Assembly (NCBI GenBank): GCA_029289265.1
Contig: JARFTX010000001.1
Coordinates: 1-64,000, forward strand
Reading direction: 5' to 3'
From: Gammaproteobacteria bacterium
Lineage (GTDB): Bacteria > Pseudomonadota > Gammaproteobacteria > Burkholderiales > Rhodocyclaceae
DNA length: 64,000 bases
The notes beneath the pieces were generated by a model that was not told where the DNA came from, searched no databases, and saw only the letters and a program-made list of their open reading frames with translations. Both the position numbers and the translations under genes were made by a program. This document shows, piece by piece, positions 35,189 to 36,550 of this stretch (position 1 is its first letter; every line of letters begins with the position of its first letter).

Positions 35189-36550
35189 ATGAACGACACG
35201 CCGCAGCAGATCGGAAAGTACCGTATCGTCCGCGAGGTGGGGCGCGGTGCGACCGCGATCGTGTACCTCGCGGAGAACCCGTACTACCCCGAGCCGGTCG
35301 CGATCAAGCATGTCCGTTTCAAGGACAAGGTGCGCGACGAGGCCAAATGGAACCGGCGGGTGCTCAAGCTCCTCAAGGCCGAGGCGGCTGTGGCGCAGCG
35401 TCTCGACCACCCGAACATCATCCGCGTGATGGACGTCGTGTTCGACCCCGACGAGGCCTACATCGTCATGGAGTATTTCCCGGGGGTCACCCTGGAACGC
35501 TACTGTGGTTTCGAGCGCCTGCTGCCGGTCCATCGCGCCATCAGCATCGTCTTCAAGTGCTGCATGGCGCTCGACTACGCCTACCGCCAGGGCATCGTCC
35601 ACCGCGACATCAAGCCGGCCAACATCCTCGTCGACGACGAGGACAACGTGAAGATCACCGACTTCGGGCTGGCGCTCAACATCAACAAGAAGGTCGAATC
35701 GGACTCCACCTTCATCATGGGGGTGGGCTCGCCCGCCTACATGAGTCCGGAGCAGATCAAGAGCTACCCCCTCAATCAGAAGACCGACCTGTATTCGCTG
35801 GGTGTCGTGCTCTTTCACCTGCTCACCGGCCGCCTGCCGTTTCGGGCGACCAATCCGGCGCAACTGATCTACAAGATCATCAACGCCGATCCGCCGTCGG
35901 TCACGCAACTCAATCCCGAACTGCCCGAACTGATGAACTCGATCATCCGCAAGGCGCTCGAGAAGGACTTGTACTCGCGTTACAAGAACGGCGCGGAATT
36001 CGCCAAGGACTTGTCGGCGGTGCGCTACAAGATCGTCGACGACACGGCGGTGCAAGCCGACACGTCGCGGTTCTCGATGCTGCGCAAGCTCTCCTTCTTC
36101 ACTGAATTCGACGACATCGAGCTCTGGGAGGTTTACCGGATCTCGTCGTGGCGAAAGGCCGACGAGCGCACCTTGCTGATTCGCGAGAAGGACGCCGACC
36201 AGCGCTTCGGCATCATCCTCGAGGGTTCGGTCGAAGCGTCGATCGATGGCCGGCGCGTCGCACGGCTCGGGCCCGGCGAGGTCTTCGGCGAACTGGCCTG
36301 GCTGGACAGCCTCGACCATCGTCACATGATGAGCGTGGTCTCGATCGAGCCCACGACTTATATCGAGATCAACCCTTCTGCGCTGGCGCTGGCGAGCGAG
36401 GAGATCCAGGAACTGTTCCGTCGCCTGCTATCGACCGTGTTGGCGAAACGCTTCGGCGCGGCCGTGCGGGAGCTCGCACGCGACCGCGAGCCGGCGCTGC
36501 GCGGCGACCTGACGGCGAGCGGGCTGGACCTGCAACTCGTCGACGACTGA
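35189..36550 (+). CDS. Ser/Thr protein kinase with C-terminal cyclic-nucleotide-binding-like domain
   Basis: A 453-residue Hanks-type kinase. The G-loop is GRGATA (18-23, third Gly replaced by Ala), the ATP lysine is K40 (VAIKH) and the helix-C Glu is probably E65. The catalytic loop is HRDIKPAN (138-145), the DFG is at 158-160 and the P+1 region reads SPAYMSPEQ. All catalytic residues are present, so it should be active. From about 305 to 415 a cNMP-binding fold follows ([20 protein letters not shown]...[14 protein letters not shown]). The phosphate-binding cassette lacks a clear R-T/S-A, so the ligand is uncertain. No membrane helix is seen. It is divergent from grpE and convergent with the next gene. 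Target unknown. Confidence 0.9.

Follow-up and report, generated by a model that had tools for sequence, protein, structure and literature searches.

Apparent single loss of the phosphate-binding arginine in a conserved bacterial Ser/Thr kinase fused to a cyclic-nucleotide-binding-type domain

Results

The window (the whole stretch of 64,000 nucleotides analysed) carries an open reading frame at 35189..36550 (+), called from the ATG at 35189 to the stop at 36550. It encodes a 453-residue fusion of a Ser/Thr kinase with a cyclic-nucleotide-binding domain (CNBD). The frame is kept in many homologues, so it is not a chance ORF. Pfam placed a Hanks-type kinase domain at residues 11-265 (35219..35983, +; Pkinase, E 1.5e-53) and a CNBD at residues 323-399 (36155..36385, +; cNMP_binding, E 7.8e-11). 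The PF00027 score was 42.2 bits against a cut-off of 27.5, and the modelled domain spans approximately residues 290-430. Alignment and model together placed the linker at residues 283-296 (36035..36076, +), with low model confidence for 283-289. No membrane-helix-like segment was found in the 453 residues by Kyte-Doolittle 19-residue means (the highest was 1.29, none above 1.6). The order of the two domains is reversed relative to PKG, as a preliminary description of the locus had stated.

The whole-protein AlphaFold2 model, computed from 55 sequences, had a mean pLDDT of 80.7 and a pTM of 0.61. Ten-residue pLDDT means were 89-95 over residues 321-390 and 72-92 elsewhere in 291-430, and the activation loop fell below 50. 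With these pTM and activation-loop values, the model does not settle the arrangement of the two domains. All 50 matches listed by a Foldseek search with the full-length model were kinases, so we built a separate model of the CNBD and searched with that. The isolated domain reached a mean pLDDT of 91.2 and matched the CNBD structures 6rsx (Z 18.1, rmsd 2.1, 131 aligned residues) and 5kjz (Z 17.5, rmsd 2.1, 135 aligned). The CNBD profile matched 55 of 55 members of alignment A1 at E<=0.001. The C-terminal half is thus predicted by the models to have the CNBD fold, in agreement with the preliminary description. In sequence searches, this domain is matched best by entries that bear the name cGMP-dependent protein kinase (8e-14 for the top one).

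The kinase half contains every Hanks hallmark: the Gly loop, the ATP-binding Lys, the helix-C Glu, HRD, and DFG. Residues K40, E65, R139, D140, K142, N145, D158, F159, and G160 were identical in 95/95 orthologous proteins, and H138 was kept in 93 of them (window included in both counts). The complete kinase motifs noted earlier are therefore present in the window and shared by its orthologues. Ser173 and Thr174 in the activation loop (35705..35710, +), both conserved in 95/95, are candidate autophosphorylation sites; at the Thr174 position, the 41 complete paralogues have Thr in 40 cases and Ser in one. The nearest solved kinase domains in the Foldseek search belong to the PknB/Stk1 Hanks kinases, at about 30–34% identity to the window kinase half. 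Unlike those proteins, the window protein has no membrane-helix-like stretch. PASTA repeats were not found in it among Pfam matches up to E 1, and the NF033483 model of PknB/Stk1 PASTA kinases scored 263.6, below its cut-off of 450. PADLOC models of the anti-phage kinase PD-T4-6 also matched the kinase half, the best at 7.8e-73. However, in the matches listed (25 of 39), the matched stretch stayed in the kinase domain or ended slightly beyond it (residue <=331), as a generic kinase would, and the gene lies in a conserved housekeeping block. We regard a PD-T4-6-type function as extremely improbable.

Kinase–CNBD matches (E<=1e-66) occurred in 43 of 274 genomes of the class, the window's own included; setting the window itself aside, these were 32–41% identical across most of the length. 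The fusion itself is thus widespread and not unique to this locus. At >=49% identity, a match was present in 24 of 61 genomes (own included), and a count by hand found the orthologue in 22 of 37 genomes of the same family, which bears out the expectation of a gene conserved in relatives. Among named genomes, the best 80 of at least 565 loci came mostly from Azoarcus, Aromatoleum, Thauera, Zoogloea, Uliginosibacterium, and Methyloversatilis. Orthologues were defined by >=47% identity and a match starting by residue 8, which gave 103 rows and 95 distinct proteins; L113 fell outside this set. The incomplete rows L060 and L098 (both Gln at 379) and B_L121 were excluded from the trees and later counts. 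L100, with Ser at 379, was kept in the trees and counted in neither the derived nor the basal group described below.

The window genome (G000) gave five Pkinase matches. One of them, G000:C37, is a second kinase–CNBD protein, 40% identical to the first, which adjoins argH and has a canonical cassette. It belongs to a gammaproteobacterial family of paralogues that share the domain order and a similar length with the window protein at about 40% identity and occupy a different locus. The sample of this family comprised the paralogues in 40 regions, which are part of the matches listed. Tandem pairs of paralogous kinase–CNBD genes were seen in L118, L119, L123, L127, and L135; in L119 and L127, the paralogues lie directly 3' of an argH-like gene, as in the window genome (L003).

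The kinase gene is divergent from grpE (34368..34961, -; start codon chosen by eye), beyond which dnaK and dnaJ continue, so the opposite-strand arrangement described earlier was recovered. On its 3' side, a small membrane-protein gene (36560-36967, -) separates it from a gene at 36970..38067 (-) which, judged from its sequence, we take to be hemH. Among the 99 orthologue loci for which 1200 bases or more of upstream sequence were available, some species being counted twice, once per collection, grpE was the divergent neighbour in 72, at 92–382 bases from the match ends. In the same family, it adjoined the kinase in 21 of the 22 genomes with an orthologue; in the exception, G025 (L010), the kinase is on the same side as the small gene adjoining hemH. 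Adjacency to grpE is therefore frequent, as the preliminary description supposed, but 27 of the 99 loci lack it. Of these 27, 23 fall in one Azoarcus–Thauera branch of 28 rows, in which four rows retain grpE; the remaining ones are L029, elsewhere in the tree, and three loci outside it. At least 10 of the 15 grpE-less loci inspected had as divergent neighbour what is presumably an amidohydrolase-like gene. Where 3000 bases or more of downstream sequence were available (71 loci), hemH was present in 57, and 18 of the 27 grpE-less loci also show it. In L036 (7396-8430, -), L039, L046, and L109, a gene of 337–364 residues that is absent from the window is convergent with the kinase; it encodes acidic DxDGNGxIDDGxELFGP-like stretches that look EF-hand-like by eye.

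Relatives without the orthologue offered a second view of this neighbourhood. In 20 of the 22 such genomes, the ones examined, hemH lay upstream of grpE in 14 (within about 650 bases in five), and no kinase was found at the hemH–grpE stretch in the 20. The hemH–grpE–dnaK block thus exists without the kinase, and its stability explains the shared position. Once the block breaks, the kinase can stay with either side. We searched the window for the sigma-32-like motif, which we take to be TTGAA-N14-CCCCA, and found exactly two perfect matches, one before dnaK (34337-34360, -) and a separate one for grpE (35000..35023, -), which points away from the kinase. Looser matches with up to two mismatches numbered 24 in the window, against 26.7 in shuffles. 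Across 68 distinct grpE–kinase regions (window included), a site with 0-1 mismatch and a spacing of 13-15 faced grpE in 67 (shuffle mean 1%), and no site with 0-1 mismatch was found towards the kinase (0/68). This orientation argues against a heat-shock promoter shared with the kinase. The best promoter candidate of the kinase itself is a weak sigma-70-like site, TTGACC-17-AAAAAT, at 35077..35105 (+). It is one of two promoter-like sites within 34900-36700, where shuffles gave 0.3, the other being inside the ORF. Sigma-70-like sites with up to three mismatches occurred in 10 of the 68 regions (15%, against 7% in shuffles) and are not convincingly conserved.

These results weigh on the suggested kinase–chaperone cross-talk. 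A kinase that belongs to the heat-shock system, phosphorylating GrpE/DnaK or being regulated with them, would account for the divergent adjacency at 72/99 loci. Against it stand the one-sided heat-shock motif, the retention of hemH even where grpE has gone, the block found in relatives without the kinase, and the 27 loci without an adjoining grpE. We therefore consider a heat-shock role very unlikely, and the conserved address near grpE is probably coincidental.

The phosphate-binding cassette of the CNBD comprises residues 367-383 (36287..36337, +). Of the two residues expected of a cAMP- or cGMP-binding CNBD, the window protein keeps the Glu (Glu368, with Gly367 before it) and lacks the phosphate-binding Arg, which is replaced by His379 (CAC, 36323..36325, +; placed by alignment). 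The cassette called atypical in the preliminary description is thus atypical at its key position. We aligned the cassettes of the 95 orthologues (window included) and 42 paralogues, 41 of them complete. The position is Arg in 41/41 complete paralogues, in 25/25 basal orthologues, and in 14/14 class-level homologues with the locus examined. The derived clade to which the window belongs (n=67) has His in 33 rows, Gln in 31, Asn in two, and Arg in one, L010 of G025. Codons at 379 are CAC/CAT or CAG/CAA in the derived rows and CGC/CGT/CGG in the 23 basal rows read, which are mostly one base apart. The Arg position lies nine residues past the FGEXA alanine, ungapped, in most paralogues and, with the exception of L100, in the orthologues; in some paralogues and in the class-level homologues, the loop in between is longer or shorter.

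The derived cassettes share the signature Asp373-x3-His377-[Arg/Lys]-[His/Gln]379. Gly367 and Asp373 were found in 67/67 derived rows each, Asp373 being present already in 11/25 basal rows. His377 occurred in 61/67 derived, 1/25 basal, and 4/41 paralogue rows, and position 378, Arg in the window, was R or K in 56/67 derived rows. Glu368, the ribose 2'-OH contact, was kept in 61/67 rows, the window among them; in the other six, all but one of Thauera type, it was replaced by Ala or Val. Position 379 admits only H, Q, N, and R, against 14 and 12 residue types at columns 380 and 381. Since the median CNBD column has four types in this clade, the narrow choice is not exceptional alone.

In the whole-protein tree, the 67 derived rows formed one clade (SH-aLRT 98), with L100 just outside (94). 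The same clade was recovered from the kinase half only (98; 93 with L100), a tree that does not contain the cassette, and so the grouping is not swayed by it. The Arg label changed twice on each tree, compared with a mean of about 45 after shuffling; on both trees, the changes were one loss and one regain (L010). Hence the cassette Arg was apparently lost once, in the ancestor of the derived clade. His and Gln interchanged often on the whole-protein tree (11 and 10 changes), so position 379 does not strictly depend on either.

We also looked at constraint on the two halves. CNBD entropy was 1.27 bits in derived and 1.30 in basal rows, and kinase entropy 0.59 and 0.76, respectively. The median dN/dS of the CNBD was 0.33 over 1362 derived pairs and 0.41 over 208 basal pairs, and that of the kinase was 0.16 and 0.25; these are rough values, because the pairs are distant and non-independent and dS is large. 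The CNBD-to-kinase dN ratio was 2.53 in the derived clade versus 1.97 in the basal rows. By these measures, the CNBD appears to evolve faster than the kinase and is not clearly relaxed. Decay of the domain in the derived clade was considered and rejected, as neither entropy nor dN/dS rose over the basal rows.

A possible supply of cyclic nucleotide was sought through cyclases. The window genome has a single class III match, a protein of 297 residues (G000:C45, L141:1681-2574, -) with metal-binding motifs intact by eye. Its C-terminal part looks like an FHA domain by eye, and such a domain could read the phospho-threonine made by kinases of this kind. In G005, G009, G011, G019, G023, and G041, another kinase match lies approximately 2-3 kb from a cyclase match whose frame is about 300–340 residues long. 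Class I adenylate cyclase was not found in the 61 genomes. Strong class III matches (best E < 1e-40) were present in five of 11 derived-type genomes (G007, G010, G012, G029, and G035, the others being G000, G025, G032, G033, G034, and G036). Of the 13 basal-type genomes, 11 had one, the exceptions being G023 and G024. Cyclases may thus be scarcer where the Arg was lost, in a comparison of few and related genomes. With a class III cyclase match present, cyclic nucleotide may exist in the cell, and supply does not preclude canonical gating.

Discussion

With the above results in hand, we propose that the gene probably encodes an active kinase tuned in cis by a CNBD which has ceased to sense cAMP or cGMP canonically and which would serve either another ligand or a ligand-independent function; we favor this account with reservations. 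As a Hanks Ser/Thr kinase, the protein would be cytosolic and competent for catalysis, and it may activate itself through phosphorylation of the activation loop at Thr174 or Ser173. Control in cis is plausible: on its short flexible linker, the CNBD may set the activity of the kinase or its partner. A single loss of the cassette Arg would have occurred in the ancestor of Azoarcus, Thauera, Zoogloea, Uliginosibacterium, and their kin. Thereafter, position 379 would have become mostly His or Gln, with His377 common nearby, while the fold, Gly367, and usually Glu368 were retained. The domain would then respond to some other ligand, or else serve in regulation or docking without any ligand. With the phosphate contact lost, cAMP or cGMP is unlikely to exert canonical control in the derived clade.

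The function that replaced it can be narrowed to some extent. Conversion of the CNBD into a sensor of a nucleoside, a metal, or haem, through the Arg loss together with Asp373-x3-His377-x-[His/Gln]379, is possible, if doubtful. Haem or a metal comes to mind because hemH is a frequent neighbour, and it is speculation from the residue pattern that the Asp-x3-His-x-His/Gln signature is equally suited to either. A ligand-free structural, dimerisation, or docking module is rather unlikely in our estimation. Some channels carry binding-dead CNBDs, to which such a module may be likened. The loss of Arg in 66/67 rows speaks for it, as does the CNBD dN of 2.5 times the kinase dN in the derived clade versus 2.0 in the basal rows; the absence of Glu368 from 6/67 is equally compatible with a ligand-free domain and with a changed ligand. 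However, Gly367 and Asp373 are invariant in the clade, Glu368 and His377 are kept in 61/67 rows each, and entropy and dN/dS are not raised over the basal rows.

Persistence of cAMP or cGMP gating, with Arg378 or His379 substituting for the classical Arg, strikes us as improbable. It would agree with a CNBD fold scoring above the Pfam cut-off, with Glu368 in 61/67 and a basic residue at 378 in 56/67 rows, and with the apparently intact class III cyclase of the window genome. Arg378 could stand in for the lost Arg, and this counts against our best explanation. The spacing from FGEXA to 379 nevertheless equals that of the basal orthologues and most paralogues, so that His379, and not Arg378, occupies the Arg position. 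Moreover, in kinetoplastid PKAR, polar residues at the Arg position are reported to accompany the loss of the cAMP response (PMC10959531).

That protein is the published parallel to the noncanonical CNBD that we propose. According to the same study, kinetoplastid PKAR has polar residues at the Arg position of a CNBD that binds nucleosides and responds to them. A change at the Arg position had no significant effect on its inosine response, and loss of the second ribose-binding Glu (Ala to Glu) reduced the potency of inosine 1556-fold (PMC10959531). The window protein shares with PKAR a polar residue in place of the cassette Arg and the retained first ribose-binding Glu (PMC10959531). It lacks the second such Glu, having Ala370, and Ala is found there in 66/67 derived rows. 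PKAR is, in addition, a separate regulatory subunit with two CNBDs, unlike the fusion in the window. PKG does combine kinase and CNBD in one chain; compared with it, the window protein has the reversed domain order, one CNBD, and no cassette Arg. The kinase–CNBD paralogues of Gammaproteobacteria, similar in architecture, have the canonical Arg in 41/41 complete rows where the window protein has His379. On a wider scale, yeast and C. elegans kinases share domains with Planctomycetota kinases, the cyclic nucleotide-binding domain among them (PMC11032199). For the topics searched, we found no study of a bacterial kinase–CNBD fusion in Rhodocyclales in the open-licence PMC literature.

Judged from the alignments and trees, the new point is the clade-specific, apparently single, and retained loss of the Arg; the kinase fold is ordinary and the fusion common. 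The label 'cAMP-dependent kinase' is probably wrong for the window gene. CNBDs are usually taken for sensors of cAMP or cGMP, and here the key phosphate contact appears to have been lost once, in a conserved bacterial kinase. Relatives with Arg-bearing orthologues at the same locus offer a natural matched pair for a change or loss of the CNBD ligand. If true, the reading of a ligand switch would mean a second, independent case in which the CNBD of a protein kinase switched away from cyclic nucleotides.
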